64,000 nt of DNA from Candidozyma auris (taxonomy: Eukaryota; Ascomycota; Pichiomycetes; Serinales; Metschnikowiaceae): assembly GCF_003013715.1 (NCBI RefSeq), contig NC_072814.1, positions 1,302,001-1,366,000 on the forward strand, given 5' to 3'. Shown piece after piece: positions 1,989 through 64,000 of this stretch. The notes under the pieces are model-generated. The model saw nothing but the letters and a program-made list of their open reading frames with translations, made no database searches and was not told the DNA's origin. The position numbers and the translations under genes were made by a program. The number at the start of each line of letters is the position of its first letter. The stretch's first letter is position 1.

Positions 1989-2319
1989 TGTACAACGAAG
2001 AAAGTGGTGTAATTAGTGCTCTAGATGCAAACAGAGATCGCCACTCCAAGCTGGTACGACGGAACAAATGGGTAGGTAACCCTTTGGTGGACGGGTGTGC
2101 ACAGTGCAAGGGTATAAGGGTATAAGCAAGTTTGCGTGTTCCTGCAGCTTCTCGTATAACAAGAGCAACGACACTTTTCACAAGAAACGTTATCGGATAG
2201 ATGAATTTTTGCGTAATTAGACGTCTCTGACATGCTTGATCGCATATGATGCAAAAAACATTTGGGCTTTCTATGTCCGACTCATGCACTCGTTTTCTGA
2301 TGTCGCATTTTGCAACCAT
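1989..2319. other. Intergenic, KES1 promoter / GWT1 3' end
   Basis: This 331-bp gap lies between two leftward genes. It holds TTTTGCAACCA at 2308-2318, directly beside the GWT1 stop; this is a divergent copy of the dispersed TGGCTGCRAAA word. Two GTATAAG words near 2110-2125 could serve as a TATA element for KES1. I see no gene. Confidence 0.5.
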
Positions 2320-3762
2320 TTAGAGTTTGATGTATATCTTGAACTTGTGCAACACAACAGCGACTGAGGTCCATGTAAGCGCATAACCAATTAAAAGAGC
2401 GTAGGTTTTTGCCTCGTTTACTTCCAATGTGTTGATGGTCATGTTGACAAGCCCGGTGAGCAAGTTGGCCAAAAGGAAAATCGCTAGGCCGTTGGCGTTG
2501 ATGGCATCAAGCACCGTCAGCTTAAGAGGTCCAATGAAACGTTCAACCATGTTGTAGCCCAACAAGAATACGGCATTGTAGCTGACCACCCAGAGTACAT
2601 AGGGAAGATTCGCTAATCTGCGAGAAATCGAGCCCGTGTGAAAAGATTCCCTTGCAACGTAGAATAAGCTGTGAGAGATCACCGTCATAATTACCAAGCC
2701 CTGAGTTGTCGTGACCGTGAAATACTTGTTTCCCTTGCCACGGGCATATGATCCCCAAAGATTATTTGGAGTTGGTTTTGAAGTTAGAACAAAGGAGCCA
2801 AAAGATTGACCAAAGATGAATATGCTGAGGTACCCGCAAAAGGACCAGAGCCCCTCTTTATTCATAGCAAAAAGTGACTCCTGTCTGTTGGACTCATCTA
2901 AAATGAAGGTAAGCAAGCCAGTATTGTTCAATGTCCATTCGTAGATGCATCCAATGGCAAGAGCAACGATGAACCTGGGGACTATGTTCAATATCGGATC
3001 AAGAATACCCAACATTATAGGCAAAAGCCCCAAAGTCATGAAGAAATTCCAGTGGATGCCATATTCAGTAGCATGTTCTTGGTACTCTAAGGATTTGACG
3101 CTAACGAGTCGAATCAAACCTAACGCAAGCACTGGTAACGCCTTCAGGGTGTTGTGTAGAAGCAATCTTCCGTAAGAAATGCCCTTGTTGTCAACTATAA
3201 GCTTCCTTTTAATAACGGCACGAGAATTGGCCAATCCCATGGAAAACACAAAAGAGCCCACTCCAAGATCCATTAGTGAGGTACCCCAGGTTTCGACCTT
3301 GGCAAACCTTCGAGGAAACGCGTGGAAGTCCACAGCTAAAATGGCCAAGTTGGTGATGACAAGCATATGTGCTCTATACGCTGTGATGAAGGACTTGATG
3401 GGGAGGAACTCTTTGGGAGGTTCAGTCTTTTTCGAAGACTCACGCTTACTCGACTTATTCACGCTCTTCTTCACCATTCCATAAACGAAGATCACCAATG
3501 CGAGCCCCAACGAGTGAAGATACACGCGATCCACCCTTGAACTGAACACAGTTATCGCCTGAAGGAGCAAAAGCTCATCAAAGAAGAACTCCCACATGAG
3601 GGAGCCGTGCAGAGCCCATTCTAGGCTCGGAAGAAGGTACTTCTTGAAAATTGTATGTGATACGTAGCCAGCTAATGCTACACCTGTTACCAAGTAAATT
3701 TCCTCGATCAGGCCGCCATTGAGGTTGGAGACGAACTGTTCTTTTTGCTCTTTCAAAGACAT
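2320..3762 (-). CDS. GWT1: GPI-anchored wall transfer protein 1 (inositol acyltransferase)
   Basis: Gwt1 is the ER membrane enzyme that acylates the inositol of glucosaminyl-PI during GPI-anchor synthesis; it is the known target of gepinacin/manogepix-type inhibitors. The 480-residue protein has about a dozen hydrophobic segments. It contains the strongly conserved block around residues 145-175 (AILAVDFHAFPRRFAKVETW, then GTSLMDLGVGSFVFSMG), then LEYQEHATEYGIHWNFF, SRRLANLPYVLWV and NGLAIFLLANLLTGLVNM. It ends with the family's usual basic tail, KIYIKL. The ATG at 3762 matches the conserved N-terminus (KEQFVSNLNGG). It functionally precedes the GPI-anchored protein encoded at 32964-34430. Confidence 0.96.
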   Translation of the reverse strand: MSLKEQKEQFVSNLNGGLIEEIYLVTGVALAGYVSHTIFKKYLLPSLEWALHGSLMWEFFFDELLLLQAITVFSSRVDRVYLHSLGLALVIFVYGMVKKSVNKSSKRESSKKTEPPKEFLPIKSFITAYRAHMLVITNLAILAVDFHAFPRRFAKVETWGTSLMDLGVGSFVFSMGLANSRAVIKRKLIVDNKGISYGRLLLHNTLKALPVLALGLIRLVSVKSLEYQEHATEYGIHWNFFMTLGLLPIMLGILDPILNIVPRFIVALAIGCIYEWTLNNTGLLTFILDESNRQESLFAMNKEGLWSFCGYLSIFIFGQSFGSFVLTSKPTPNNLWGSYARGKGNKYFTVTTTQGLVIMTVISHSLFYVARESFHTGSISRRLANLPYVLWVVSYNAVFLLGYNMVERFIGPLKLTVLDAINANGLAIFLLANLLTGLVNMTINTLEVNEAKTYALLIGYALTWTSVAVVLHKFKIYIKL

Positions 3763-4968
3763 GTTGCAAAAAGTGATAGCTGGAAGCTTCTTGATTCACG
3801 TAGGGCTCGATGCAGGCCATAGCAAAAGAGGGTTACGTTAGCGTGATTTGACGAACAAAGATTGTATAAATTTTTTAGTGGCTTCTGGCACAAAAAAGAA
3901 GCTGATCAAATTTTCTGTGAGTCAATATCTGCCAACATGTTTGAGCGGTCCGAAGGTTACTACGACGTAAGTAAGCGACGTACTTTAGTGTAGAATGGCT
4001 GCGAAAACACGCAAAGTGGAGCTGAAAGGCCTGTGATGGAACTTGAGCACCACGATTATTATCTTACTTCTTCTCTTGTATCTTTCACTGATACTACGAG
4101 TTGCCTGACACTCCTTTAATTTTTTTCTCAAGTGTCATGTTATATGTACTTATGGTAGTGGACAACAAGACTCCGAACGTTCAACTAGATGTAAAAGACA
4201 CACAAACGCACATTCATTAGCTCTTTAACACCGTGCATACAAAAAATTCAAAGCTTTAGATATTTGCTTCTCCATTAGAGAACTCCTGGCAAAACACTAA
4301 ACATTCTTGACTGCATGTGCAGGCTGTTCCTGAAAGTACTTAAAAGTTGGTGAATATATAAATGTTTTACAGAAAAGAGCCAGAAAACTGACAGTCGTAC
4401 ATTATCTTTCTCATTGTTCCCTATTTTTCGTGATAAGAAGGCACACCTTTTTCATCCTAAGCTTCATTGCCAGTGTGCTCTCTCTGCGCTATCACATTCT
4501 CAGAATGGCTGCGAAAAAGCTTTCCTAGAATTCACTCTCGATGAACACAGACCTCGATTGGAAAAATAAAAAATAAAAAAAATAAAATAAAAAAGAATAC
4601 CTCTGAATTGTGTCCAGGCACTTCAATCGCAACCTGTGTCTCCTCCTCCAGCCTCGCACAAGCCTTACTATATACGGATATGTCCCACAGCCCGCAACCC
4701 GTACACAGCTTGACTCAAGTAGAATACAAGCCGTCATCAACGAGATCGGCGGCACTTTCAACTTTCATAGTCACCATTTCACAGTCTACTTTTATTTTTT
4801 TTTACTTTTTTGTTTCTTAGACAACCTATTTTATGTCAATCTACCACCGATAGTTCCTCAGCCAGCAGTGTGCACTAAACAAGTAAAAAAACTTCTCGTA
4901 CAATTTACCCCAGATATCAACACCCACGAAAACCCACATTACTCAAGTCAGGTTCAACACCACACAGA
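3763..4968. other. 1.2-kb divergent intergenic region between GWT1 and SPO7
   Basis: No convincing gene was found. The region holds two near-identical copies of the dispersed word, both inside AGAATGGCTGCGAAAA (core at 3996-4006 and 4506-4516). A TAGGGCT heptamer (Tbf1-like, 3801-3807) lies about 40 bp upstream of GWT1. There are A/T-rich tracts near 4560-4600 and 4788-4815, before SPO7. A short ATG exon-like stretch at 3937-3966 followed by GTAAGT was considered and rejected. Confidence 0.5.
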
Positions 4969-6192
4969 ATGTCTGAGACACTAGAGCTTTCGCCTCGTTC
5001 AGACGACGACGGCATGCTCTCAGACCTGCCTCAGCTCAATCACGGCAGCTCGTTAAGTTCCATCGCCATGGACGACGAAAAACGATGGTCTCCGTCAGAA
5101 GTGGGCTCTGAGTCGGATGGAGGCAAAGATTTGGGCAACACGGTTTATTCGAGTGCCTCTGAGCTGGAATCACAGCTGGTGAAGGCGAAAGAGCCTCGAA
5201 AGAAGAAGGGGAAAGCGCCTACGCCAGGGCTGGGGCTGGGGCTTCTGCCGAAACAGAAAAAGAAAGTAAGGAGGAAGTCTAGGAACCTGGATGTGTTTCT
5301 GGAGAAGTCTCACCGTTCAGAGCTTCATGGAAGCGGTTACACGCTGACTCCAGCAGCAGGCAAAATATTTCGGAACTTGCTTATCTTGGAAGAGAGTCTT
5401 CGACAACAGGTTATGCAACAACGGGCGCTTCGAAGAAAGTACTTGACGTTTTTGGCAGTTCTCTGCTCTTTAATTGCATTCATTTCTCATCACTTATATT
5501 TCAATGACCACAGCGCCTCAGTGAGAGTGCTGCTCCAGCTCATGCTTCTAGCGCTTTCTGTGACCTTGATGCTATACCACTTATCTGGTGAGTACCAAAA
5601 GACAATTGTTCTTCCGAGAAAGTTTCTCTCGTCAACAAATAAAGGCTTGCGCCAACTCAATTTGCGTTTGGTCAAGATAAAAACCTCCATGACCGACACC
5701 ACTGTCGACCTCATACGAGAGGCAGGTCTTTTTTTGTGTACTATGTGTCTACGAAGCTGTCACACTGTCTACCCATCTATGATACAGAACCCAAACTCCA
5801 GATTAGAGGTGTTTTTGGTCTCGGCTCAGCTGCAGTGCCAGCCACGGTTCGGCCTAACCGACGTGAAATTGACTCTCTTACCTCGTTCGTTCAACACTGA
5901 TATCCGAGAGGGATGGGAGCTATACAGAAATGAGTTCTGGGTGAACGAGGGCGTCAGAAGAAGAATCGCCATGATGGAGTTTGTCAGTGGGCCCGCAGAA
6001 GATAAACTGAGGGCAAAGAAAGAAAAGAAGGAGCGTCGCAAACCTAGAATCCCAACGGCAAAGGACCTTCCAAACCCCCATCAGGCCAACCCGGCCAATT
6101 TGGACGGATTGTTCCTGCCCCAGGAACTCTCCAAGGAGAATCTTGAGGCTCTAGGAAAGGCGGAGAGTCTCGATATGGAGGCTTCTTTTTAG
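4969..6192 (+). CDS. SPO7: Spo7, regulatory subunit of the Nem1-Spo7 phosphatase
   Basis: Spo7 binds the Nem1 phosphatase at the nuclear/ER membrane. The complex dephosphorylates Pah1 (lipin), controlling triacylglycerol synthesis and nuclear shape. The 407-residue protein has a long acidic/serine-rich N-terminal extension (1-120) absent from the 259-residue S. cerevisiae protein. The conserved core follows: KIFRNLLILEESLRQQ (132-147), two membrane segments (about 159-178 and 187-206), LSGEYQKTIVLPRKF, SSTNKGLRQLNLRLVK, QPRFGLTDVKLTLLPRSF and REGWELYRNEFW. The C-terminus is lysine/arginine-rich. CTG codons are common in the extension, so some printed leucines are probably serines. Confidence 0.92.
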   Translation: MSETLELSPRSDDDGMLSDLPQLNHGSSLSSIAMDDEKRWSPSEVGSESDGGKDLGNTVYSSASELESQLVKAKEPRKKKGKAPTPGLGLGLLPKQKKKVRRKSRNLDVFLEKSHRSELHGSGYTLTPAAGKIFRNLLILEESLRQQVMQQRALRRKYLTFLAVLCSLIAFISHHLYFNDHSASVRVLLQLMLLALSVTLMLYHLSGEYQKTIVLPRKFLSSTNKGLRQLNLRLVKIKTSMTDTTVDLIREAGLFLCTMCLRSCHTVYPSMIQNPNSRLEVFLVSAQLQCQPRFGLTDVKLTLLPRSFNTDIREGWELYRNEFWVNEGVRRRIAMMEFVSGPAEDKLRAKKEKKERRKPRIPTAKDLPNPHQANPANLDGLFLPQELSKENLEALGKAESLDMEASF

Positions 6193-6217
6193 ATGTTCTA
6201 TTAGAATTCACTATGCA

Positions 6218-7633
6218 TTAATACAAGGCACTAATCTGCTGGGCGACTTTCCGTCCAAATACGACACATTCGAGTAACGAGCTACCACCAAGTCGGTTGC
6301 CTCCATGAAGTCCACCGCTCACCTCGCCTATAGCGAAGACATTTTTCATCTGCTTACCTGATTTTGTAAGTATTTGAGCTTTATCATTGATTGATACACC
6401 ACCCATAGTAAAGTGAAGCACAGGTGTGACAAACCCGTAGTAGAATTGGGTGCCAAATGGGTTACCGAAACTGGGCCTGCCCAAATCATCATTCCCAATG
6501 GCTTCATTGTACTGGCGCAAACCTTGCTCGATCTTTTCAGGCGCAAGTCTTCCTGAAGCAATGGCCGCAAGTTTGGTAGTGACGTCCTTAGCGTCACCTT
6601 TGAACATGAGATTTTGTGACATGTAGAAGTCAATATGTGGTTTGGCCTTAATATAATCTTCCTCGCTGACGGCAATAATGCAGACTGCGTGGCCGTTATC
6701 GTTGGCACAATGTTGAAACACCCCTTCAGTGACGTTATCTCTCGTGGTCAACTCATTCACAAAGCGAGCTCCTGTGTTGGGAGAGAGAAGAATACCGCCG
6801 ATGGCTCTGATCAATTCTCCACAGAGAAACTTCCACTTACTATTAATAGTCTCCTCATTTTTGAGCTGAACAAACCCTGTCGGGTGAATTTGTATAGCGT
6901 CCATGTCAATTAGGTCGGCATCGAGGTGCAACTCGGCGATTTTTTGGCCGTCGCCAGTGGTCTGCTGTCCGTTTGTCAGAGGCAAGTGAACAAGATCAGG
7001 TCTGTAGCGCCGAAGAAGGCTCGAGGAGGTGAAGTCGGCCGAGTAGCCGCCGGTGGCTAGGATGATGTTATTGGCAAGAAGTGTCCTTCTATTCTTCTCG
7101 CCGTCTTCCACTTCGATACCGTCAGCTGTGAAGTCTGAATGCTTTCTAAACCCTTTGAATGTAGTCTTTTTCAAAACGTCAACGTTGTCTGCTCCTTCGA
7201 TTTTCTTCATTAGCGCTGACACTATAGCGAATCCAGGTGGGAGCGATCCTTTGCCCCTGTGGGTTCTAGCAAACGAATGGCCACCCAACTGTGCCACGGC
7301 ACTCAAGTCCACGCCACACTCATCCGAAAGCCAGTGGACAGCATCGGCAGAGTTGTTGGCCAAAACGTTCACCAACTCCTGCTTGGACCGTCCTTTGCCT
7401 GACTTCATTGTATCCTGAGCAAACAACTCCACGGAATCTCCGGGCTCTTGGAACCGCGTAGGGGCTCCATTGATTCCCGAAGAGGCCTTGATTGAGTTGC
7501 CGCCCAATTTGTCTGTTTTCTCCACGAGGGCCACTTTCAACCCCAGTTGTGCTAGGGAAAGCGTCAGCGTGAGTCCAGCCAAGCCTGAGCCAACGACAAC
7601 AGCGTCGTAGCGTGTAGCTGCCATGGTGGACAT
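6218..7633 (-). CDS. OSM1: Fumarate reductase (soluble, FAD-dependent) Osm1/Frd1-like
   Basis: The enzyme reduces fumarate to succinate to reoxidise FADH2/NADH, supporting anaerobic growth and oxidative protein folding. The first in-frame ATG (7633) gives 471 residues starting MSTMAATRYDAVVVGSGLAGL, which contains the FAD Rossmann motif GSGLAG. GGNSIKASSGING, AQLGGHSFARTHR, GQQTTGDGQK, QIHPTGF, ELTTRDNVT, HFTMGGV and GEVSGGLHGGNRLGGSSLLECVVFGR follow; these are the fumarate-binding and flavin signatures. The frame stays open upstream of the ATG without another AUG. S. cerevisiae Osm1 is dually targeted to ER and mitochondria by alternative starts, so the N-terminus here is uncertain. Its 3' end lies 25 bp from the convergent SPO7. 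Confidence 0.93.
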   Translation of the reverse strand: MSTMAATRYDAVVVGSGLAGLTLTLSLAQLGLKVALVEKTDKLGGNSIKASSGINGAPTRFQEPGDSVELFAQDTMKSGKGRSKQELVNVLANNSADAVHWLSDECGVDLSAVAQLGGHSFARTHRGKGSLPPGFAIVSALMKKIEGADNVDVLKKTTFKGFRKHSDFTADGIEVEDGEKNRRTLLANNIILATGGYSADFTSSSLLRRYRPDLVHLPLTNGQQTTGDGQKIAELHLDADLIDMDAIQIHPTGFVQLKNEETINSKWKFLCGELIRAIGGILLSPNTGARFVNELTTRDNVTEGVFQHCANDNGHAVCIIAVSEEDYIKAKPHIDFYMSQNLMFKGDAKDVTTKLAAIASGRLAPEKIEQGLRQYNEAIGNDDLGRPSFGNPFGTQFYYGFVTPVLHFTMGGVSINDKAQILTKSGKQMKNVFAIGEVSGGLHGGNRLGGSSLLECVVFGRKVAQQISALY

Positions 7634-8583
7634 GGAGGCGATTCGATAAGTTAGTGAACGAGCCCACAAAACAAAATAGTATGCGCCCACAAGAAAGAGT
7701 GGGAGACGGAGGTATAAGAGTTTAAAGTGTATGTTGAGGAAGTGTGCTTAAAAGAGTGCTCCCAGAGCGTTTTTTCGCAGCCAACCTGCCTATTTAAGTA
7801 GCCCTTGGCTCAGAAATCACCTGATGACCCAACCTCGTGATGGCCCCTGGCCAGGTGCCGTCATAAGTGATTCCTGAGTCAATGGCGGAGGCGGAGGTCC
7901 ATTATTCCTGGGTCTTCATTGGCTTCATAATTTCAGGCTCGATGAATGTGTAGATGGCAATGCACTAGTGCTGACTGCAATTGGAAACTGTTATCAATAG
8001 GCTGCGAAATAGTTATTTGAGAGATGGCTGCAAGAATGGTTGTAAAGGACATAGGAAGATTGGATCTAGATGTTAAACGTTCCAAGACAGGCACATAAAC
8101 TTTGAGTGAGCTCTGTAAGTTTTTTACGTAGTGAATTCTGTGGGTCCTGAGAGTGTTACCTATCATTTTGCAATCTTAAGGCACCTCAACTGCAGAGCTG
8201 GCAACCATTAATTACGACACCCATAAGCTTTAAACCCTTTTCTAAAGTATATCAGCCTCGAAAGCATGAAGCTATTTGGAACTTGGCCTTGCCATTAACT
8301 GGGATTGGTGTCTCTAACACTGAGGAGCACACTATCTACAAGCGGAGTCGCACTCGCCCTTATGTATTCCAACAAACAACTCATACTTCTGAATAAGCGA
8401 TTATAACAATCGGTAATTTCAGGGCTCGTAATTTAGATCAATGAACAGGTTGGTTTTTTTTTTTTATTTGTTTTGTTTTGTTTGGTACAATGGGTTTCTC
8501 TTCGATCTCTGTCACGTGATCTACCTCCCACTATATACCTTGATCTATCATCATTTCTAATCAATCAAACCCTACTTTCCCCC
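7634..8583. promoter_or_regulatory. Divergent OSM1 / YTH1 promoter region
   Basis: This 950-bp gap carries the dispersed word in three forms: TTTTTCGCAGCCA at 7771-7783 (about 140 bp upstream of OSM1), AGGCTGCGAAA at 7999-8009, and a degenerate TGGCTGCAAGA at 8025-8035. Near YTH1 there is GTCACGTG at 8511-8518, a TATATA box at about 8532-8537, and AACCCTA at 8568-8574, just before the ATG. No gene is visible. Confidence 0.55.
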
Positions 8584-9234: not shown

Positions 9235-9315
9235 ATATGCCTTTGCAAATCACACCTAAATAGCTACAATTGACGGTTGACGAAAACTATGTATAGTTAT
9301 TATTGTAGAGTCCTA

Positions 9316-11877: not shown

Positions 11878-12141
11878 ACTTTGTGGGGGTAGAGTGTCCT
11901 TTTGAATAGGGCTGATTGTTGAGGTGAAGGTTTCGAAAAGTGAGACTATACTACTTGTTGATACTGCACTAACTGCTACTACCACCAATTGGCACAATAC
12001 ACTTTGCACTACACCACGCGAGATATATATCTTTGTAAATTCATTCTAGTCATAACTAAACATTCTAGTCACTGTCGTCAATGATGTGTGGTTAAGCTAA
12101 TGTTCCAACGTCAAGTTTCGAGTCATTGGCTGCCTGCAAAA

Positions 12142-20940: not shown

Positions 20941-21618
20941 TGTGGCTGTAACTACTTGAAGTTGAGCTCAATAGGTAGTTGTGAACAACCTACATGTACG
21001 GTCGTGTGTTGCTCATAATCACCGATAAGGGGACTATAGAGTTTGATTCAAACTAGAGTAAACGGGCTTTTGATGTCATCAATAAGTGAGAAAATCAGGT
21101 ATTGAGGTGCTGCTATAACGATTCATTGACTTTGCTTCGTCTCTTTACGGCTCTTGTTGACGATCTTGTACTTTCCAACTGCGCATTTGCAACCACTGGC
21201 AGTGTACGTGAGACAAACGTTTAATTATGACTTCAAGTACTTGCAATTGACTCAAAACTCAATCTTTTTTTTATTTTTCACTGTACCCCACTCCTCCTGT
21301 AGTTTTCAATCGACTTTTGCTTCCGCCATGTGTTATCGACTTGAAGGTTCACTGAGGCTGCAAGTTTTTTACTTTGGCTGCGAAAACGTTCACTACTCGC
21401 AAAATACTTAGCAGCTCAAATAAATACAAGACCATGCCCAAGTCGTGAGCTGACAGGAAGTATAGTTTAAAGAGACAAAGGCACTTAAATCCAAAGAGTT
21501 TTTTTAAAAAATTATTCTCTTCTTCGTTTTCACCACTGTTTTGAAACGAAACGAAAAATTTGCACGTGACTGCACTTCCACTATAGATCACTTCGTCCCC
21601 ATACTCTTCATCTACAAC
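20941..21618. promoter_or_regulatory. Divergent VMA7 / DPC29-like promoter region
   Basis: The gap contains TGGCTGCGAAAA at 21375-21386, TTTGCAACCA at 21186-21195, and CACGTGAC (Cbf1 octamer on the minus strand) at 21563-21570, about 50 bp before the mitochondrial gene's ATG. There is also a T-rich stretch at 21490-21530. No gene is seen. Confidence 0.5.
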
Positions 21619-22816: not shown

Positions 22817-23417
22817 GATGGGCTATAGATTGGAATTGGTGAATATGTTGCAGAGAGAGATGATCGTTTTCAAATCTCACCTCTAGGTTTGTAGGCAGGC
22901 CGAAAAGGATGGAAGCTGGTTGGTCAGGCGGTGAGACAACTGCTGAGCACACGTGACCAGACCAGACTACGAATGGCTGAAACGTGGGCCATTCCTAAGA
23001 CTTTCACGCTACCAAGTTGTGTCTGAAAATCTATTGCCGCTAATCTATTTTTCTAAGCAATTTGAAGTGTATATCTAAGCTGTTGTTTATCGTAGAGATT
23101 CACTGTTGCAAAGCAGTGAGCGCGAGTATGAGGAAAAATGAGCCCATAATCTGCCCAGGTGCTAATGCACACCGTATCCCCTACTAAGATTGAATAGGTT
23201 GAAGCCAAAGCATGCGCCAAGATGAAATCATCCTCAAGTAGATGATTTGTGCAAACTTCGCAACAAAAGAAAGCCTGGCCACCAGATCACTGGAAGTGTG
23301 TGTAAGTGTATAGACAGGAATTTAATTTGCAGCCATTATGAACAGGTTTTGAAATGAAGGATACGCCACTTGCATGAGCTCCAGCACACTTCCAACATAG
23401 GCTAGACATGTGAAAAC
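22817..23417. other. Intergenic, promoter of the B12D-like gene
   Basis: This 601-bp gap holds CACGTGAC at 22950-22957 (about 135 bp upstream of the small mitochondrial gene) and TTTGCAGCCA at 23326-23335, a member of the dispersed word family. No gene is seen. Confidence 0.45.
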
Positions 23418-28184: not shown

Positions 28185-30299
28185 ATGAGCCTCGAGGCGA
28201 AACCCGAAAGCGAAAACGACGTCGCCCTCAATTCTAAAGACGAATTACATGAGGACGGCTTCGACCAAGAGATCCAGCGTGCTATCGCTGAGCACGAGAG
28301 GGAGCTTCTGAGACACCAGCTCCAGGCGGGCCATGAAGAAGAGGCCCGTGAGGGGGGTAATAATGCTGGAATTGAAGGCATAGAGCAGCAAGAAGCAGAG
28401 ATTGAGAAAAGTGCCTCGCAAAAAGCTGTAGAAGGAGGAACAGAGGCTCCACCCGCCCCTCAGGTTGAACAAGCTCAGGAGGGAGAGCAGGCTCGTGAGA
28501 GCTTCAATGGCAAGATAGCAAGCGAGCCTTCAACGAATAACGAGGCTGAAGCTGAAGATGCTAATGTGTTCTCTTCTTCCGCAGAGAAGCATCACTTGGA
28601 ACTTATAGCGGATGAGCTCAAGAAGGCTACTTCAGACACCATCGAGACCAAATCAGGTAAACCAACCCACATTCCTGCTGATTCTGAGCTTCTTGCCACA
28701 AACACCGCTTTGGCTGCCTATAACGCTCTTTCAAGTCAGGTGCCGCTGGCTGCCTCGCTAACGAACGTACATTTGGCTGCTTTGCCCCTTCCGCTTGTCA
28801 CCCCAGATTACCTTCCAGCAAGAATACAGTTGTTGATGAACACCTTGCCAGTGCTTGACAACTTGGCTACCCAGCTTCTTCGAGTTTTTGTTGCTGGGCC
28901 ATACCAGAAAATCATCGAAATAGCCTCCAGCCCGGACACACCTCAGGGAGCCGCCTTCAGGGATTTGGCGTCTCTTTTTGAATTCACAAAAAGACTCTAT
29001 TCTGAAGAAGACCCTTTCCTTACGGTTGAACACTTGGCACCTGGAATGTGGAAAGAAGGCGACACCACGCCCAGCATGTTTAGGTATAGGGAACAGAGCA
29101 TAGAGTCGAGTTTACGAAAAGTCAATTTGGCCACCTTCTTGGCGGCCTGTTTGGGAACTATCGAGCTTGGATTCTTCTACTTGAATGAATCTTTCTTGGA
29201 TGTGTTCTGTCCGTCGAATAATCTAGAGCCAGCAAATTCCATGTCGAACATGACCTCGTCAAATATGAGTCTTCAAAGTGGTGTAAACACAGTGATCGGA
29301 GACAAGGTCGGTAAGTTACTCAAGCCACAAGCTGTCTTGTACTTAGACTTGAAAACACAGGCGTACATCTCGGCGATTGAGGCTGCGGAAAGAACAAGAG
29401 AAGAGATTCTAGAAGACATTTTCCCCAGCAACATGGAAGAGATTCTTCTCAAGAAGCGAGGTGTCAAAAACTTAGCGCCGATAGAGTCTGATTTCATTTC
29501 GCGATGCAAGGCTAGGAAGAAAACTCTTCTTGAGTACCCAGTCGAGGGAAACCTTAGTGAAGAATACGAATGGTTCACCTTTTTGAAAGACCTTTTCGAC
29601 TACATCTCCAAAAACATGGGGTTCCTCATATGGGGTAAGAAGGGCAAGAGCGCTCCGAGAGAGCGTACACATACAACGCCGCATAGCGATCAGACCCTAC
29701 AAGGCTCACATCGCCTGGCTGAAGTCAAAGCGATGTCGCCGACCCAGGAGAGCTTCAGTGGACAACAACAAAATGATAGCAGCGAAATCACCCATGCTAG
29801 GGACAATCAGACACCACAGTCCAACGATACGGAGATCAATGAGATCACATCGGCTCTTCTACCGAGCGAGATATTGGAACAACAGATACACCTTCGTATC
29901 AACCCTCGCCAGTCAAGCAAGCTTACAAACAGACGACCCTGGACACGAGATGAGGAGAAGGCTCTACGCCATGCTTTGGAACTCAAAGGACCGGCATGGT
30001 CCACGATTTTGGAGCTCTTTGGTCCTGGCGGTCGTATCAATGAGTCGCTTAAGAACAGGACGCAAGTGCAGCTCAAAGATAAAGCTCGTAATTGGAAGAT
30101 GTTTTTTTTGAAACTGGGTCTTCCTGTACCAGTGTACTTGCAAAAAGTTACGGGAGATCTAGAAAGGGAGGACAAGTTCAAGGCCAAGAATGCAAGGCAG
30201 AAGAAGACGGCCGCAGCGCCAGTACCAGCAGTTGCGAAACGAGAAGACATTGAAGAAGAGGACGCAAAGAAGGGATCTAAGAAAAGAAGGAAGCTGTAG
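28185..30299 (+). CDS. TBF1: TTAGGG-repeat binding factor Tbf1
   Basis: Tbf1 is an essential Myb-type DNA-binding protein. In CTG-clade yeasts it drives ribosomal-protein genes; in Saccharomyces it acts at subtelomeres and snoRNA promoters. The 704-residue protein has a Glu/Ala-rich N-terminus (1-160), a TRF-homology-like helical middle (about 165-480), and a C-terminal telobox Myb domain at about 583-640. That domain runs [34 protein letters not shown], then [16 protein letters not shown]. The C-terminus is lysine-rich. Codon 644, a CTG right after the Myb helix (FFLK-CTG-G), lies where I recall serine in S. cerevisiae Tbf1. Confidence 0.93.
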
Positions 30300-32963: not shown

Positions 32964-34430
32964 TCATGGGAGCAACACCAGCACTATTCCCATAGCCACC
33001 GAAATCACCCAAGGCAAGCACGGTGTGGGGGACCCAGAGACGAGGCCCTTTCGTGTTTGCACCGGTGGGCGGCTTCTGGTTGGGAGGATCAAGGCTCCAG
33101 AAGATGTTTTGCAGGCAGTGGAGACAGAGTCAGTGGGGGAAGAATCAGAGAAATGGGAGTACATGAGGGAATTGGAGGAATTGGAGGAATTGGAGGAATT
33201 GAAAATTGTAGTGTTGGAGAAAACAGGGTAAATAGTGTTGGAGGGTATTATGGAGAAATGGGAGCCGTTGAAGGGAAACTCACCACTGTAGTTGGATGAG
33301 GGAGGCACCATGGTGATCACCACAGAGAAGAAGGTGGAGGAGGAATTGACAGAAGGAGATGGCGCTTGAGAAAGAGGGACCAGCACGGATTGAATAGACA
33401 GACTAAAAGGTTCTTTTTGGTTTGTGGAAGGCTCCTTGAGGATCAGCTTCTCTTCAGCGGTGGAGGAAAGCTCCAAGGGCAGAGTAGTAAGAACCGTGGA
33501 AGTCATTTCAGGAGATAAGCACTCGGCTATTGCACTCGAAGTAGAGATATAGGGGTCCTTTGGCAGTGTTGTTGGCTCTGGGCTTGGAGAGCGATTGCCA
33601 GTTGGCTGCGAAATCGTGGAGCCTACAGGAGAAGATGCTGGAGGAGATGCTGGAGGAGCTGGAGGTCCGAGAGGGCTTGATGACGAAGAGTCAGTGGGAG
33701 TTACTAGAGAAGGAGCAGAAGGAGGCTGCAAGGGCTCAACAACTGGCCCAATGCTTCCTCTGCTGTCAGGTTCACTAGTCTGCCTAGTCTCGGCAGCCAG
33801 TGTCGACCTTGTGCTCAATATGGATCCAACAGACTCAGTAGACTCAGCAGATTCATTAGACTGGGGAAATCTACCGCTATGGGCATCTTTCTGACTGGAG
33901 AGGTCTGTTTCTGTATCCATTGAGGTGGCCCTTGGCACAGTAGAGGCTGCAACAGTGGTCATAGAAATCAAGACAGTGTCAACCAGCTCGCTGGTCTCAG
34001 AAATCACCACTGGATGCATCAGCTCGCTGGAGATACCTGAAGGTGGCATTTCTGTGACTGAAGGTGCCATCGTTTCCCCTTGTGATTTCCCTCTCTTAGT
34101 GGTGGGTTCCACTTGCTTCAGGTGCCTGGTCGCCGGTGTAGATCCCACGAACAATGGCACACTGCTGGTGGAAGTGGAAGCAAGAGGTGACTTTGTATTT
34201 AGTGGTATCTTTGGCGACTCAAAAGAGTAGGTGAAGTTGTTTCTAGGGACGAGACCTGGAGGAGAGGGACCCTGCTGTGTGTGATTTGCAGCCATTGACG
34301 AGTTGAGCATCACCAGGTGGTGGGGCGGCAAATGGCCAGGAACGGTTACGTAGACGGTTAAGGTAGCCGTGGTTGTCGAAATTAGAATCAGCTGGGCGAA
34401 TATCGCCGGGAAAATCCAAAAGAGCTTCAT
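32964..34430 (-). CDS. Predicted GPI-anchored, Ser/Thr-rich cell-wall protein
   Basis: The 488-residue protein (ATG 34430) has a signal peptide (MKLFWIFPAIFAQLILISTTTA). A long Ser/Thr/Pro-rich region suited to O-mannosylation covers residues 60-440 and includes many NxS/T sites and a short NSS tandem repeat. It ends in a hydrophobic tail (PWVISVAMGIVLVLLP) preceded by small residues (SGSP) suited to a GPI omega site. No catalytic domain is visible, so it looks like a structural wall/adhesin-type mannoprotein rather than an enzyme. No specific orthologue is recognised. It contains a TGGCTGCGAAA copy (33603-33613) and a TTTGCAGCCA copy (34285-34294) in the coding strand region. Confidence 0.8.
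   Translation of the reverse strand: MKLFWIFPAIFAQLILISTTTATLTVYVTVPGHLPPHHLVMLNSSMAANHTQQGPSPPGLVPRNNFTYSFESPKIPLNTKSPLASTSTSSVPLFVGSTPATRHLKQVEPTTKRGKSQGETMAPSVTEMPPSGISSELMHPVVISETSELVDTVLISMTTVAASTVPRATSMDTETDLSSQKDAHSGRFPQSNESAESTESVGSILSTRSTLAAETRQTSEPDSRGSIGPVVEPLQPPSAPSLVTPTDSSSSSPLGPPAPPASPPASSPVGSTISQPTGNRSPSPEPTTLPKDPYISTSSAIAECLSPEMTSTVLTTLPLELSSTAEEKLILKEPSTNQKEPFSLSIQSVLVPLSQAPSPSVNSSSTFFSVVITMVPPSSNYSGEFPFNGSHFSIIPSNTIYPVFSNTTIFNSSNSSNSSNSLMYSHFSDSSPTDSVSTACKTSSGALILPTRSRPPVQTRKGLVSGSPTPCLPWVISVAMGIVLVLLP
33168..33203. repeat. 9-bp tandem repeat (GGAATTGGA x 4) coding for an Asn-Ser-Ser run
   Basis: Four consecutive 9-bp units begin at 33168, 33177, 33186 and 33195; the last ends GAA. 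Read on the minus strand they give the repeated NSS sequons near the C-terminus of the wall protein. Such repeats expand and contract easily between strains. Confidence 0.85.
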
Positions 34431-48907: not shown

Positions 48908-50230
48908 ATGAATTGCAAGCCTCTGGGTATCGTTGGCCTAGAAGAGGCTCTACCGAATGGACAGTACCAGTTGCTCCATCTTCGGTGCCGGGGGTTCCAA
49001 ACAAAGCCTTTAACTATGGCTGTCGACCGACCTCTCACTGTGAAAGTAAAGCACTTTTTCATGCTTATCGACTCCACGTCCAAATGCCCCGTGCTAGCTT
49101 TGGAGATCTACATTTACTTGACTCTTGAGAAGGACCGTGTGTCTCAGCACATCTTCGTGCCCAAAGCAGACACAACTGGACTAGGATCGCAGCGTATAGA
49201 CGTTGCAGCGGTGGTGCTGGTGTTGGTAAAGGCATTGGTGGAAACAAACGCAGGTGCTTACTTTAAAGAGCCTGTGGCTTGGAAACAGAGCCGCAAGGAC
49301 AACGATGTGAAGGCTGAATCGCCATATGCCACAGTCAACGTATTGCGTGCTCTCGCCTCGAAGCTCACTTCAGATCCTGCAAGTATACATTCGCTTCCGT
49401 ACTATGGGACACCAGAACATAAGGAGAAGGAGTCCAGAGGGCCTGAAGTTGCTGACACTGTGACGACAAAAATCTCCCTCTTCACCCGTGCTGCTAATGC
49501 CTATATCTTTCCCAAACTGGAGCACAACAGCGGCAAGCACATTGCTGACGGGAACACTCTATTTAGGTGGTGGTTGCGAATTTTTGACCATTGTCTACCG
49601 TCAACCTGGCGTTGTGTAGGTGACATTCCAGGAGCCGAGGCTGCCGCTGTTGCTCGTAGCTTCCCTTCAGATCGTTGGAAACAGGGCAATATCTACGTAA
49701 GTGGACTGACACCAGCTGTGCGTCAGATACCGTTGTTTCCAGATGACCCCAAGGGCCGGTTCCTCGAGCACTTGATTGTGGAGGGGCGCTACAAATCGGT
49801 AACCACGCAGCAGTTTTGGCAGGAGTTGGGCTTCAGGCAAGAATTTAGGCTAGGCAATGTGGTGGGAATCATTGGCTGCGAAAATAGCGATGCCGTTGCT
49901 TTAGATCGTGAATCTACCTGCCCAGGCTTGAGTGTTTCCCATAAACAGTATAAGAAAGTTGTCGAGTTTGTGAAGGGGGAAGACTACAGCAATAAGTTCG
50001 ATATTCAGGCCATGATCGAGTCTGGGCTTCCTGAGGTTTTTAAGCAGAATGGCTTGAAGTACCTGACAATCAAGCTTGAGGGGAAGAGACAGCGTAAAGA
50101 AATGTCACCAAAAAATGTGATGCCGGTCAATAACTTAAATAGCATGGTGAGGAAACGTCCTGCCGTAAATAACTTGACAGGGCTTGTAAAAAAAGCCCCG
50201 AAGAATTCGAAACCTTCAACGGGGTCCTAG
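48908..50230 (+). CDS. RTT109: Histone acetyltransferase Rtt109 (H3K56/K9/K27)
   Basis: Rtt109 acetylates new histone H3 with the chaperones Asf1 and Vps75 during replication and repair. The 440-residue protein matches S. cerevisiae (436). Conserved motifs are HFFMLID, LEIYIYLTLEKD, VPKADTTGLGSQRI (functional Asp at about 88), TKISLFTRAANAYIFP, SGKHIADGNTLFRWW, and the catalytic-region PLFPDDPKGRFLEHLI. The C-terminus is basic (KLEGKRQRKEM, then RKRPAVNNL). ATG 48908 gives an N-terminus of usual length. A TGGCTGCGAAA copy (49873-49883) lies inside the gene, coding IGCEN. Confidence 0.93.
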   Translation: MNCKPLGIVGLEEALPNGQYQLLHLRCRGFQTKPLTMAVDRPLTVKVKHFFMLIDSTSKCPVLALEIYIYLTLEKDRVSQHIFVPKADTTGLGSQRIDVAAVVLVLVKALVETNAGAYFKEPVAWKQSRKDNDVKAESPYATVNVLRALASKLTSDPASIHSLPYYGTPEHKEKESRGPEVADTVTTKISLFTRAANAYIFPKLEHNSGKHIADGNTLFRWWLRIFDHCLPSTWRCVGDIPGAEAAAVARSFPSDRWKQGNIYVSGLTPAVRQIPLFPDDPKGRFLEHLIVEGRYKSVTTQQFWQELGFRQEFRLGNVVGIIGCENSDAVALDRESTCPGLSVSHKQYKKVVEFVKGEDYSNKFDIQAMIESGLPEVFKQNGLKYLTIKLEGKRQRKEMSPKNVMPVNNLNSMVRKRPAVNNLTGLVKKAPKNSKPSTGS

Positions 50231-52815: not shown

Positions 52816-52982
52816 CGAGGGACCCTGAGGGCGCTCTGTGTGCATAAAGACGTAGCAAGGATGACGAGCAAGGCAATTTTGCAGCAAGCGTGCTTACGTA
52901 GCAATCCTTGATTTTTATAGTGATTTATAAGGTAGTTATATCCCGCTTTCATCTTCCATCTGTTCCTTTACTATATTACAAC

Positions 52983-53678: not shown

Positions 53679-53830
53679 ATTGCCGAAGTCAAGTTCAAGA
53701 CCGGTAAAAAAGAAAAGTAATAGCAGCAAATGAATGAAGTGGCATTGAGAGTGCAAGTGTTGCAAATTGTAAGGTCTCTTGTAAGTACTCCTAATGTATA
53801 ATATTATCACTATTCCCTGTTATCAATGAC

Positions 53831-55111: not shown

Positions 55112-55945
55112 GATATCAGAGAAGCTGATTAGTAAAGGTCGATAGAGTGTTGACCTTTTTTTTCCTGTGACGAATGTAGGATTGATGTCGCAGTGGGGAA
55201 GTCACGTGCCAAAACGTCGCCCCCTGGAAGGAAGATACTACTATAACAGATAATGAAGGAGAGGAAACAGAGGTGATTGGTCTGGAGATGATTGGATTTT
55301 GGACTTGATTTAGGGGGAGTTACTTGCAATTAGGTGAGCTGGAGACGTGAATCATGGCTTGGCGACGGAGGTCGGAGGTCACGTGACATACCTCGGAGTT
55401 CAAGAACGTCAACAGTGTACCGATGTTGCAATGAAATTGACTAAAACGTTTATGTGGCTCAAAATTAGCCGCTTTAAGCCCTCACTGGTGCTTCTCCGTG
55501 AACATCACTGGATTTGCGCAAAATCTACATTAGAGCACGTGTTGTATCTCCGAGAACCATAAGTGCAGGTGACTAAATGATGCCATTACCCTTCTTCAGA
55601 TTACATTGTATTTTCTATAAATTCCATTTTGGTTTTCGCCACCACCTTCATTATGCACACCTTTTGACCTGGTCACACATTGACGCTGCTTTTGTGGGCT
55701 GTAATAGGCCTCGGTACCGGCGCGCTGAACTTCCTCGGTCCTTCCCCCACAGAAATGGCTGCAAATTGATTAAGTATAATCTGCACTAGTGAAGCCAGAA
55801 AATGCTAGATGTGAGGATCATAATGTAGTTAGTCATATTGCTAGAGTCGACTACAATCAAAAAACAGATCCTATCTTTATCTTTTGTAATTCGTGTAAGT
55901 GAAAGGCTTGTTGGGTCTACCAATCTATTCACGCCTCTGTATATC
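55112..55945. promoter_or_regulatory. PEX13 promoter / PKP2 3' flank
   Basis: Three CCTCGG boxes (55391-55396, 55709-55714, 55733-55738) match the FarA/Ctf1 fatty-acid-utilisation consensus. GTCACGTG occurs at 55201-55208 and 55378-55385, and CACGTG at 55536-55541. TGGCTGCAAAT at 55756-55766 is a dispersed-word copy. No gene is seen. Confidence 0.5.
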
Positions 55946-59487: not shown

Positions 59488-59769
59488 ATGGTCAGACAGA
59501 TTCTTAAAGTTGCCAACTTCAGAACCGTGTCCAGGTGCTGGGTGCCAGCTCTGATGGCCCAGCAGCAGCCGATGCTGAGATTCTTTTCTTCCAGACAGAG
59601 GTGTATCAACTTCAACAACATCAACGAGCACGACAACTCTGTCAACTTGATCTCAAACGACGATGTGTTTGCTGCCGAGGAAATCAAGCACCAGAACGAG
59701 GCTCCCTTTGAGCCTACGGTGTTCTCGTCAGAGGATGTCTTCACTGCTGGTCCAGTGAACAAGGCATGA
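59488..59769 (+). CDS. Small orphan protein with mitochondrial presequence
   Basis: I do not recognise this 93-residue protein. Its N-terminal half is Arg/Gln/hydroxyl-rich and free of acidic residues (MVRQILKVANFRTVSRCW.., MLRFFSSRQRC), typical of a matrix-targeting signal with possible cleavage after RFFSS. The C-terminal half is acidic and contains two copies of a short motif: SNDDVFAAE and SSEDVFTAG. The gene has a canonical promoter (TATATAA about 108 bp before the ATG) and an A/C-rich leader ending ACACGCA before ATG, as in highly expressed yeast genes. It may be a stress- or respiration-related small protein (inference only). Confidence 0.7.
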   Translation: MVRQILKVANFRTVSRCWVPALMAQQQPMLRFFSSRQRCINFNNINEHDNSVNLISNDDVFAAEEIKHQNEAPFEPTVFSSEDVFTAGPVNKA

Positions 59770-62148
59770 CTGAGCTTTGAATTTTAGGCATACGACAAAT
59801 TATAATTACATAGGATGAATTACGATACCATAGAAGACAGTGGAAACATGTAGACTTTAGACTGTGTGATCGGACTACTGGAGGCGCTCGGTCCAACGGA
59901 TGCCCCGGACTCTTCTCTTTCACCTCCCCTCCAGCAACCCTATTAACCCACCCATAGTGATACAAGAGGAGAAGATGCTAAAACAGTGGAGTAGAAGGAA
60001 AACAAAGAAGACAAAGCGACCCCCTGAATTACCCTGGACTTCATTCTCCGTGGATTCGGATCATTAGCATGTGCCTCGGATTATCAGGTGCGCACCCGGA
60101 ACAACACCACCGAACGGCTCCAAATTGATCTTTTCGTCCACAGTCGTATCCTACTTTTGTGTTACCATTTTTCGAGCTGTGCGATGTCGGCCGGGTCTGA
60201 GTCGGTTTGCGATTTGTGGATACACGGCGCTCTGGATTTGCGGGAGTTGAAGCGGTTGCCAGAAATGGCTGCGAAAAGAGTGTAGAAGAAAGGAGAACGA
60301 GCAAAATTCGGAAAGTTTGAAAAATTGATTCGTCACTTGGAGTTCGGGAATGTTTGAAGGAATTGATTTGTCATTCGGAGTTATTGACTACGAACAACGG
60401 AACTCGACTAAGCGTTATCGAAAGATTTGCTTCAAGTGGCTGAAAACATGGAAGGGTGGGTGTAGTGCTGTAAGAGGAGCTACAGAAGGCACACAAGATG
60501 CAATTGACAGCACTTGGAAGCGACATAGGGCACCACCCAGTCCCCATACTCCAATTTATGTGATTATCAGCTTGAGCCTCTTATGAATTGAACTGTGCTG
60601 AAGTCACAAGATCTCCGTACTGTAGTCATTTGTGGTTAGTGTCTCCTGGCACACTCCATGTGCCGAAGGGCAAAATCACATACTGCCGAAAAACCGTTGC
60701 ATGCCGTTAGGACAAACGGGTTCTTGGGGCTCAAAGTGAGATCAGGAGAAAACGAAAGTAGATTGTGTATTGCTCTTTGACTAGAGATAGTGAGGAGTGT
60801 TAAATTTACCACATGGGCCTTATCAATTTATTACTTTGACACATTCTAGGGAGACTACCTTGACAATTGTCCTAGCGAATTTTTTTCTGGCCTGCAGCGG
60901 AATACCTGATGTGGATTCTACGAGAGATTGCGTTCTCGTGTGTGTGGTTTTGTGTCGCTCTTGCTTTTGCGCTCAGGGGCATATCTGATCGGGACTTGGG
61001 AGACGAGGGTCGAGCCTCTGGGAGGAGTGGCTCCTGGAAGTAAAAGTAGGAGTCAAATGTGTTTAGGGGTTGAACCAAGCCATCTCTCTGTGTGGCCAAA
61101 GGTTCAGAATTTGGGTGCAAAATGACATACCAGTTGGTTCGTCTGAGGGAGTAGCCAATGGGCTGATTACTGTTTACTCTAAGACTTTTTTTTTTTTTTT
61201 TTCTTTTATATTTTTGAAGGATAATTGAGCTGCTAGTATGTAGCAGCCGGTACTTGGTTCAATTAAAAGTAGTTGTTGATTGAGTACCCAGTTTAGTGCT
61301 CCAAAGGATGATAGCACATAATATAAGTTGAGTTTTAAATGCTGATTGACTTTCTGTTCGATGATCTGGTTAAAGCTCTGCTTAATTGATATCCTATGAG
61401 ACTGGAATAGGTCACAGTATTGCTGAACAGTGATTGCGATCAATTGGCTGCAAAGGGCTGCGCTCACGGAACACTCAAAGTTGTCCTGAGCATGCAAACT
61501 GTTATGAATCAATTTCTCCTTGTCAGTATCAGTCGACTAAATCCTAAACGGTATCCAATCCAAACGAAAAGAATTGCGAGTATCGTTTAAAAGTGACAGC
61601 TGGTTTGACAGAATTTACAAGAGGCAGATCATTGGGAGCGATTAGCCCACACATCTCGATTGTTAACAAAGTAAAAGCAGCGGTAATAGCTTGCCCTTGC
61701 TTCAAACAAAGTATACATTACGTTACCATTACTCTAGGGCATTTAGAGAAAACTGAGGCGTCTCGACATTCGTTTTGCACTATCGAATCCAACACGCCAC
61801 ACTTTCCCCAAAACATTACAATTTTGGTTGTTTTGCTGAGCTCAGTCAAAAGCTTCTCTTGCTCTTCCGTACGTGAAATGCAACTAGTTTCAAAGCTTTC
61901 TTTGGTTGCTTGATGGTGGATATGGCAGTAGTTGATGCTGTCTGCAGGGTGTAGCTTATGATAAGTGACAAACGAAATACCAACCAGAGTGAATAATCAG
62001 AAAGTTCAAGAATCTATGTCTCCAATAGCACACTCTAAGGATATAGAGTCCAAAAAACAAAGAATGTGTGTGTTGAAGCACGACTTCAGTGTAGACCGAT
62101 TCCTCTTTGTACGTCTACTGCATAAGATTGCCATATTTTGGATCCACT
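59770..62148. other. 2.4-kb gene-free region
   Basis: The longest stretch here without a recognisable gene. It contains TGGCTGCGAAAA (60266-60277) and TGGCTGCAAAG (61445-61455), plus a 16-T tract at about 61186-61201. Small open frames (for example 60350-60586 and 61593-61913) have no family features. It could hide a centromere, an origin or a non-coding RNA, but I see no direct evidence. Confidence 0.35.
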
Positions 62149-63156
62149 ATGATCCATTCAGCTATTCGTCAATTCACAACCTCAGCACTCAAAATGTCCG
62201 CTTCAAAATTGACAATTGCCTGTGGGCAGATGTGCTCTTCCTCGAATCTTGCCGCTAATGCCAGAGTAGCCACCAAGCTTATAGACCAGGCTGTGGCGAA
62301 AAACGTCAAAGTGCTCTTTCTTCCTGAAGCAGCTGATTATATCTCAAGAGACGCTGCTCATTCTGTTCAATTGGCCAACGATAGCAAGGATAAGTTTATA
62401 AATGTGTTACAAAACCACGTTCGTGCAATTCACGACAGAGCTGAGGGAAATGCTCAAGAAAAGGGGATTTTTGTAGCCGTGGGCGTTCACGAGCCTGCTG
62501 AAGGAGCCAACAAGGGCAAGAAAGTTAGAAACAATCAGCTTTGGATAGACAATCGTGGTGAAATTGCCCACACGTATCAGAAACTTCACTTGTTTGATAT
62601 CAATATACCCAATGGACCCATTTTGAAAGAACTGAATTCAGTTGAGCCAGGGCAGGAGATTTTGCCTCCGTTCAAAATCAACGAGGGTGAATTTGCCAAA
62701 TTTTCCGTGGGGTTGGCTATCTGTTACGATATCCGGTTTAACGAGATGGCACTTCGGTTACGTCGATTGGGTGCAAATATCATCACCTTCCCATCTGCCT
62801 TCACCACGAGAACTGGAGAGGCCCACTGGTTGAAATTGGGCAAAGCTCGTGCAATTGACTCTCAGTGCTACGTAGTGATGGCAGCTCAGTGCGGAGAGCA
62901 TGATGTGTATGCTGATGTTGAGGAAAACACCGCAGAGGGCAAGAAAGTGAGAGTCAGTTACGGCCAATCGGTAATCATTGGCCCCTGGGGAGAGGTGGTG
63001 GCTAAAGGAGACACCTACTTGGAGCGCCCACAAGAAGAGAAGGAGTACAGCCAGTTGATTGTTGGGGAAATAGACTTGGACTATGTGGAGAAGATCAGAA
63101 GAGACTTGCCTGTTTTCACCCACAGGCGACCGGAGATATTTGGCTATGAAGTGTGA
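62149..63156 (+). CDS. NIT2: Nitrilase-family deaminated-glutathione amidase Nit2
   Basis: The enzyme hydrolyses deaminated glutathione, a side-product of transaminases (metabolite repair). From ATG 62149 the protein is 335 residues with a short presequence, MIHSAIRQFTTSALK. A second ATG (62194) gives a 320-residue cytosolic-type form starting MSASKLTIACGQMCSS. The C-N hydrolase triad is visible: Glu in VLFLPEAADYIS, Lys in HTYQKLHLFDINIPNG, Cys in VGLAICYDIRFNEMAL. Further family blocks are FPSAFTTRTGEAHW, AQCGEHD and SVIIGPWGEVVA, ending VFTHRRPEIFGYEV. An in-frame TTG further upstream is ignored. Confidence 0.94.
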   Translation: MIHSAIRQFTTSALKMSASKLTIACGQMCSSSNLAANARVATKLIDQAVAKNVKVLFLPEAADYISRDAAHSVQLANDSKDKFINVLQNHVRAIHDRAEGNAQEKGIFVAVGVHEPAEGANKGKKVRNNQLWIDNRGEIAHTYQKLHLFDINIPNGPILKELNSVEPGQEILPPFKINEGEFAKFSVGLAICYDIRFNEMALRLRRLGANIITFPSAFTTRTGEAHWLKLGKARAIDSQCYVVMAAQCGEHDVYADVEENTAEGKKVRVSYGQSVIIGPWGEVVAKGDTYLERPQEEKEYSQLIVGEIDLDYVEKIRRDLPVFTHRRPEIFGYEV

Positions 63157-64000
63157 AAGGTGAAGCGTGAATATGGATAAATTGAGGGGGACCTTTTTGG
63201 TGCTTTGAATTGGAGGCGTGGAGGGAGGAGAAATTCGTTAGTTGCTCTAGCGTTGACCACTTCTCATCAACACACATGAACCGTCTCCTAAACATCTCCT
63301 GATAATCAGAGGCAAAGTACAAGCGGGGAATTGAAACGTGAACACTGTGGCTTTTCAAGTTGTGAATTGCTTCGAAGGTCTGGAAGACCTAAACAAGTCC
63401 TCCACAGAACCTAGGCACGAGCTTCCCTCTCAAGCAGACAATTTTGAGAACGCGTCCATTCGATCTCGATGAAAGTAATTGCTTTATTCTGGCAGACATC
63501 AAGCGGCTAAGCCGTTTTGTTGCGTGACATTCGGACTCTGATAAGATAAGAGGCTGCACTTGGCACTGTACGTGGGTGACGGCGCTGACGAGAGGAGACT
63601 ATACGGCTGGCCTTAGCAACGCAATATTCAATTATTTTGTTCGAAAGCTTCTTATCAGCGGGGCACGAAGCTTGAAATTCTGACAGTGTCAAAGTGACTT
63701 CGTCTTTTGCAGCCATGGCTAGCACTACGGTGGACCGGTCGCGCTATCTGCAGTACATTTCTCACCAAACCAGGCTTTACGCTCGGTGGGAGCAACTCCG
63801 AAAGTAAGGGAGCGGAAGGCGATGTCGAAAGGGAGGGAAGAGCGTGTGTGATGATCATCTCCGGAATTGCAGTTCCAGCAAGATGTGAACGACCATACTC
63901 AATTTCAGAAGACAAGTGGAAGAATTAAAATGAAAATTGGCTCGATTGAGTAACAGTAGAAGTCGGCGCGCCGTTGGGGTTGACAGAAAAAAATAGACTC
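63157..64000. other. Right-edge region without a confirmed gene
   Basis: TTTTGCAGCCA at 63705-63715 is a dispersed-word copy, and an ATG overlaps its end. A 30-codon open frame starts there (63715) and stops just after AAAGTAAGG; it could be a first exon of a gene continuing past the window, but this cannot be judged here. Confidence 0.35.

Follow-up and report, generated by a model that had tools for sequence, protein, structure and literature searches.

A sharply defined 11-bp word upstream of many Candida auris genes is a putative binding site of a general-regulatory-factor-like protein

A 64-kb stretch of the Candida auris genome (contig 3, positions 1,302,001-1,366,000; hereafter the window) carries many copies of an 11-bp word, TGGCTGCGAAA, which recurs throughout the assembly and lies mostly in noncoding DNA upstream of genes. 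The word is probably the binding site of one abundant and highly selective protein that would act like a general regulatory factor. Established here are the word itself and its excess throughout the genome, the sharpness of its consensus, its position in noncoding DNA and upstream of genes, its symmetry of orientation, and its tandem arrays.

Copies were counted over the whole assembly (12,249,773 bases in 7 contigs), with each word read in reverse as the control. The exact word occurs 926 times (475 + 451) and the reversed word 5 times; the excess first noticed in the window is thus far above chance genome-wide as well. Related forms were also found, namely TGGCTGCAAAA (528 copies, control 1), TGGTTGCAAAA (330 copies, control 5), and TGGTTGCGAAA (94 copies, control 10). 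The family described by TGGYTGCRAAW comprises 2,306 copies, i.e. about one per 5 kb, compared with 33 for its control. Forms with a purine at position 8 (926 + 528 copies) contrast with TGGCTGCYAAA, the form with a pyrimidine at this position, which was found 58 times (control 6).

All 14 exact copies reported for the window in the initial annotation were present where it had placed them (9 on the forward and 5 on the reverse strand), as compared with 0.04 copies expected from a dinucleotide model. Its variant forms were likewise recovered, i.e. 3 copies of [AC]GGCTGCGAAA, 11 of GGCTGCAAA, and 6 of GGTTGCAAA, a few positions being shifted by one base. Allowing at most one mismatch to TGGCTGCRAAA, 40 places were detected in the window (100 shuffles: mean 3.1, maximum 7). 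With 14 exact copies, the window is about three times denser than the genome mean, as 926 copies in 12.25 Mb predict about 5. Because of this above-average density, promoter fractions and coding/noncoding densities were recounted without the window; the remaining sample statistics include it.

Placement relative to genes was analyzed in a 344-kb sample consisting of the window and 280 kb from contigs 1, 2, 4, 5, and 6. Genes were taken as mechanical open reading frames (ORFs); ORFs of at least 200 amino acids (aa) were classified as coding, leaving a noncoding remainder of 116 kb. The exact word was found 22 times in noncoding DNA (0.08 expected) and is not solely intergenic, as 4 of the 26 copies lie in ORFs of at least 200 aa. 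Outside the window, 12 exact copies were noncoding and none coding. For the TGGYTGCRAAW family, the corresponding numbers were 43 copies in 89.5 kb of noncoding and 8 in 190.5 kb of coding DNA; coding and noncoding DNA thus differ, with a density approximately 11 times higher in the latter. Within the window, the number of copies between genes, originally given as eleven of 14, hinges on the ORF cut-off: 10 of 14 lie outside ORFs of at least 200 aa, and 8 of 14 outside ORFs of at least 100 aa. Of the 10 copies outside ORFs of at least 200 aa, 7 lie 145-620 bp upstream of a start (first described as often 140-670 bp).

The core GGYTGCRAA was present within 800 bp upstream of 45 of the 111 genes outside the window, compared with one of 111 for the reversed word. 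Including the window, and among genes whose upstream stretch covers all 800 bp, the share was 46% (a set of 139 genes; reversed core 1.4%). CACGTG was found in the same interval for 20 of the 111 genes outside the window (about 18%). Orientation with respect to the gene was balanced, both for the strict form upstream of genes (22 and 19 copies) and in tandem intergenic regions (18 in the same and 15 in the opposite direction). Family sites occurred at 0.67 per kb in divergent, 0.57 per kb in tandem, and 0.14 per kb in convergent regions, the last value stemming from a single site.

The footprint, AATGGYTGCRAAA, spans 11-13 bp, is not palindromic, and is used in both orientations. A mixture model fitted to noncoding DNA gave A-W-T-G-G-Y-T-G-C-R-A-A-A, which describes about 100 sites in the 116 kb with an information content of 17.1 bits over 17 columns, those outside the footprint being close to background. 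Flank information was restricted to the two bases preceding the core (-1 and 0), which favor A. The extended flank AATGGCTGCGAAAA, first described as frequent, accompanied 4 of the 14 exact copies in the window, and clear information was limited to the same two bases. Homology does not reach past the word and these bases, and fragments of a wider repeat, which by the initial annotation would have refuted its reading, were not found. Few copies deviate from the consensus: the noncoding 116 kb hold 22 copies of the exact word, 14 of the form with A at position 8, and 11 of the other 32 single-base variants combined. The form with A at position 8 is less strict, as position 4 may also be T or G and position 11 may vary. 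Genome-wide, the bases at positions 4 and 8 depend on each other, with 926 copies of C + G, 528 of C + A, 330 of T + A, and 94 of T + G (odds ratio 6.2). The site frequency requires about 11-13 bits, and the site carries several bits more, an excess that is possibly overstated, as the model fit may miss weak sites.

Copies also occur in close succession. Genome-wide, 32 head-to-tail pairs of TGGCTGCRAA 1-30 bases apart were found, of which 17 have a start-to-start spacing of exactly 11 bp and 3 of 12 bp. Counted by locus (25 paired loci), the spacing is 11 bp at 13 and 12 bp at 2. A tail-to-tail arrangement was detected at one locus. Where the spacing is 11 bp, the units join as AAATGG at 12 of the 13 loci, and the downstream copy therefore retains the preferred AA before TGG. 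The longest array consists of five head-to-tail copies of TGGCTGCAAAA with an 11-bp period (locus L043, 714-768; contig 7, 589,213-589,266), near a possible start codon; a 273-codon open frame, counted from its first ATG, includes the array, which would lie just upstream if translation began at a later in-frame ATG. A second array (L044), of three copies, is overlapped by a 77-aa ORF; about 450 bp downstream of it begins an ORF that, by its first residues, presumably encodes a RAD3-like helicase. In a third array (L045), three copies repeat every 12 bp; it lies about 120 bp in front of an ORF and is again overlapped by short ORFs. The 11-bp period is compatible either with slippage or with binding on one face of the helix. 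On contigs 3-5, the copies of abutting TGGCTGCRAA pairs differ at position 8 (G versus A) at 6 of the 13 loci with 11-bp spacing, a difference that is subject to selection, as the search held the remainder of the word fixed. Separately, a 31-bp direct repeat on contig 2 (2,217,187-2,217,258) holds the word three times and represents a local duplication of the site with its flank.

In other yeasts, the role of general regulatory factor is filled by Reb1, Abf1, Rap1, and Cbf1. A site for such a factor, an origin element, or another chromosome-organizing word had all been proposed in the initial annotation. The first of these is the best fit because the word is used in both orientations, lies upstream of about 40% of the sampled genes, and exceeds expectation there more than any other word except A runs; the origin proposal is disfavored by copy number and placement. 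From sequence patterns, we infer binding, an effect on nucleosomes, and a single factor. One protein would read about 11-13 contiguous bases and sit, in either orientation, upstream of roughly four in ten genes. There it may keep the local promoter stretch nucleosome-free and help transcription factors or remodelers to act at the promoter. Possibly, this job is shared with Cbf1 and covers the work done by Abf1 and Reb1 in Saccharomyces. Long asymmetric sites without a gap are characteristically read by proteins with tandem zinc fingers, tandem Myb domains, or Ndt80-like folds.

Several observations weigh against a general regulatory factor. Coding copies of the exact word exceed chance (4 versus 0.15 expected), all of them in the window. 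Depletion in convergent regions is weak, with one of 62 sites versus 4.1 expected when ORFs of at least 200 aa are used; with ORFs of at least 100 aa, the three commonest forms had no convergent site among 40, and [AT]GGYTGCRAAW had 2 among 57 (about 4 expected by length). No clear distance peak was seen, positions within tandem intergenic regions being near uniform. Poly(dA:dT) tracts were not linked to the sites (0.27 of sites versus 0.23 expected), and no difference in flank composition was seen near them. Short-range avoidance of CACGTG, with none within 100 bp of the 62 sites (3.7 expected), speaks for such a factor, but this avoidance, detected at 100-150 bp, was absent at 300 and 600 bp and was borderline for the longer Cbf1 word. 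Per promoter, CACGTG and the word displayed no mutual exclusion (p = 0.32).

Known promoter words were compared by scoring their consensus forms for enrichment in the noncoding part of the sample. Among the words tried, clear enrichment was limited to that of Cbf1. Words for Reb1, Tbf1, Abf1, Rsc3, CACGAC, SCB, MCB, PACE, and others occurred about as often as expected or less (ratios from 0.3 to 1.6), and the enrichment of Ndt80-type, SCB, MCB, PAC, RRPE, Gcn4, Mcm1, Rfx, and Crz1-like words was far from that of the word described here. Rap1-like words and a longer Reb1 form, with 1-3 copies each, were too few for judgement.

The closest systems differ from the word as follows. (i) Cbf1 resembles it in that RTCACGTG is enriched in the same noncoding DNA, but differs by its palindromic core, its other sequence, and its 5.7-fold enrichment, compared with 68-fold for the word. 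A Cbf1 site was rejected as an identity, the word being without the CACGTG core. (ii) Reb1/Nsi1 sites (TTACCCG) are short words found in many yeast promoters. This likeness does not extend to the sequence, which is unrelated, and TTACCCG is not enriched here (7 versus 5.3 expected); the word does not contain this core, and a Reb1 site was likewise rejected. In C. albicans, Nsi1 was mapped by chromatin endogenous cleavage sequencing (ChEC-seq) with TTACCCGG, according to a passage of PMC7565893. (iii) The Abf1 word has a ratio of 1.3 in this yeast. Abf1 has a promoter-organizing role, which we suggest for the present word too, and a gapped site. The gapped core RTCRY-N-ACG is not met by the contiguous, ungapped 11-bp core, and Abf1 was therefore rejected. 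No genome match was obtained with PF04684 (Abf1), but a control search was equally matchless, so that absence is not proven. (iv) Some yeasts use Tbf1 as a general regulatory factor. The Tbf1 site ARCCCTAA has ARCC in common with GCARCCATT, and a TBF1 gene lies within the window; the rest of the word differs, and ARCCCTAA is not enriched (3 versus 4.7 expected). The word is without the ARCCCTAA core, and a Tbf1 site was not retained. (v) The Rpn4 element (PACE) is discussed below. Outside these systems, the Mrr1 motif of C. lusitaniae (CGGAGWTAR) is unlike the word by eye.

According to parts of PMC2897762, Cbf1 has been proposed to be an ancestral general regulatory factor of yeasts, D. hansenii, C. 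albicans, and Y. lipolytica lack an Abf1 ortholog, the repertoire of such factors changes between clades, and a CACGAC site is specific to C. albicans. After the word itself, CACGTGAC/GTCACGTG, likely a Cbf1 site, is the next clear promoter word of the present sample (21 copies in 116 kb, 2.4 expected). Weaker over-represented noncoding words were AGGAGACT (14 versus 3.4), GAGGAGAC (12 versus 3.0), and CGGCGCGC (6 versus 0.6).

A conventional regulator of very many genes (stress, nutrient, or Ndt80/Rpn4-like), which switches them on and off rather than organizing promoters, appears unlikely. This reading draws on two resemblances, both seen by eye: a single base separates GGTTGCAAA from GGTGGCAAA, the Rpn4 element (PACE) of S. 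cerevisiae, and the core matches the Ndt80 element GNCRCAAAW save one position. Neither GGTGGCAAA nor GNCACAAAW is enriched in noncoding DNA, however, and about 40% of genes would be an unusual breadth for a regulon. The word is also not specific for proteasome promoters: its loose form was found at 8 of 14 core proteasome promoters compared with a 46% background (p = 0.29), and a link to Rpn4 and the proteasome was rejected.

A replication origin or another chromosome-organizing element (a site of the origin recognition complex, or a loop or barrier anchor) is very improbable. A long, sharply defined word that is spread genome-wide and mostly noncoding would suit such a role, but 2,306 copies far exceed the few hundred origins expected in a 12-Mb yeast, and convergent regions are not favored. 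The C. auris telomere repeat, in the part of PMC8128392 that gives it, is unrelated to the word by eye. About as improbable is a short repeat or minisatellite spread by slippage, or fragments of a repeat family, without a bound protein. The 11-bp head-to-tail copies at 13 of 25 paired loci, with up to five in a row, are what slippage would produce, yet close head-to-tail pairs number only 32 among 2,306 family copies. The flanks are unrelated in the sample, the noncoding bias is strong, and the cloud of one-mismatch forms is thin (11 noncoding copies versus 22 exact and 14 A-form copies). Action in RNA, as a 5′ leader, splicing, or localization element, would agree with a position upstream of coding regions but is extremely improbable, as the balanced orientation is unexpected for a single-stranded element.

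The sites in the window are listed in Table 1. The window also harbors a TBF1 gene (28185-30299, forward strand) with TRF and Myb domains, which shares the window with the cluster of words; the sample shows no enrichment of the canonical Tbf1 word. Among the best 120 of 162 matches, the nearest named relative of this Tbf1 was from Clavispora lusitaniae (68% identity, 84% query coverage), followed by Australozyma and then Scheffersomyces; one further cluster was 99% identical. One K. phaffii relative among the matches listed carries a name of the general-regulatory-factor type. A search for Tbf1 in viral contigs yielded no related yeast DNA.

Table 1. Sites of the word and its variants in the window (positions counted from the first base of the window)
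Site	Position	Strand	Context
TGGCTGCGAAA	3996..4006	+	exact match; divergent intergenic
TGGCTGCGAAA	4506..4516	+	exact match; divergent intergenic
TGGCTGCGAAA	7773..7783	-	exact match; divergent intergenic
TGGCTGCGAAA	13914..13924	+	exact match; tandem intergenic
TGGCTGCGAAA	21375..21385	+	exact match; intergenic
TGGCTGCGAAA	27363..27373	-	divergent intergenic, between an aminotransferase gene and TBF1
TGGCTGCGAAA	33603..33613	+	within ORF >200 aa
TGGCTGCGAAA	36478..36488	-	within 139-codon ORF of doubtful reality
TGGCTGCGAAA	42327..42337	+	exact match; intergenic
TGGCTGCGAAA	49873..49883	+	within HAT_KAT11 ORF
TGGCTGCGAAA	52611..52621	-	within Pyr_redox ORF; next start 366 bp downstream of site
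TGGCTGCGAAA	58141..58151	+	within 126-codon ORF of doubtful reality
TGGCTGCGAAA	58819..58829	-	within putative 207-codon ORF
TGGCTGCGAAA	60266..60276	+	exact match; intergenic
TGGCTGCAAAA	15984..15994	+	within 129-codon ORF of doubtful reality
TGGCTGCAAAA	18361..18371	-	within Sds3-like ORF
TGGCTGCAAAA	35591..35601	+	word match
TGGCTGCAAAA	37062..37072	-	within 113-codon ORF of doubtful reality
TGGCTGCAAAA	63705..63715	-	beyond last ORF of window
TGGCTGCAAAT	23325..23335	-	word match
TGGCTGCAAAT	34284..34294	-	within ORF of at least 200 aa
TGGCTGCAAAT	55756..55766	+	word match
TGGTTGCAAAA	2308..2318	-	word match
TGGYTGCRAAW family, GGTTGCAAA core	21185..21195	-	word match
TGGTTGCAAAA	37511..37521	-	within 132-codon ORF of doubtful reality
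TGGTTGCAAAA	50545..50555	+	word match
TGGYTGCRAAW family, additional site	49570..49581	.	within ORF

Elsewhere in the assembly, PF00270 helicase matches on contig 6 form two pairs that agree in score and in frame length (about 251,804-330,454 and 397,634-476,299), about 145.8 kb apart. According to passages of PMC8128392, C. auris B11220 (Clade II) has seven chromosomes, a genome of 12.2 Mb, and a 145-kb tandem duplication on chromosome 6 around a candidate centromere. The paired matches agree with this published duplication; together with genome size, contig number, and the Tbf1 relatives, they point to C. auris Clade II.

No report of the word as a yeast promoter motif was found among the matches listed in searches with the word forms and consensus spellings, judged by titles and the beginnings of abstracts, with subscription papers and preprints largely outside their reach. 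Literal GGCTGCGAAA, for which one match is a paper on yeast translation, and TGGCTGC together with motif, Candida, and yeast gave no paper evidently on a yeast promoter motif among the matches listed, and four degenerate spellings had zero occurrences among theirs. The word was also not mentioned in passages of PMC7565893, PMC7559329, PMC2897762, PMC12607694, and PMC8128392. The coupling of positions 4 and 8 and the head-to-tail copies at exact 11-bp spacing are new details.

More tentatively, the promoters of Candida auris and its close kin might depend on a dominant general regulatory factor that resembles none so far described. It would have about 2,300 near-invariant sites, read more bases than so many sites call for, accept C or T at position 4 and G or A at position 8 in preferred combinations only, and at some promoters be stacked head to tail with a spacing of one helical turn. 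That the sites seem to carry more information than their number demands is a puzzle that can be tested, and a word this sharp makes the factor directly findable by pull-down. If the word is the site of a general regulatory factor, a major pathogen would have a master promoter word near about 40% of its genes that is undescribed as far as searched, and the protein behind it may, speculatively, be essential and absent from humans. It would also provide a clean case of the replacement of a general regulatory factor in yeast evolution, a turnover of the kind described in parts of PMC2897762, where the strain list is without Metschnikowiaceae.

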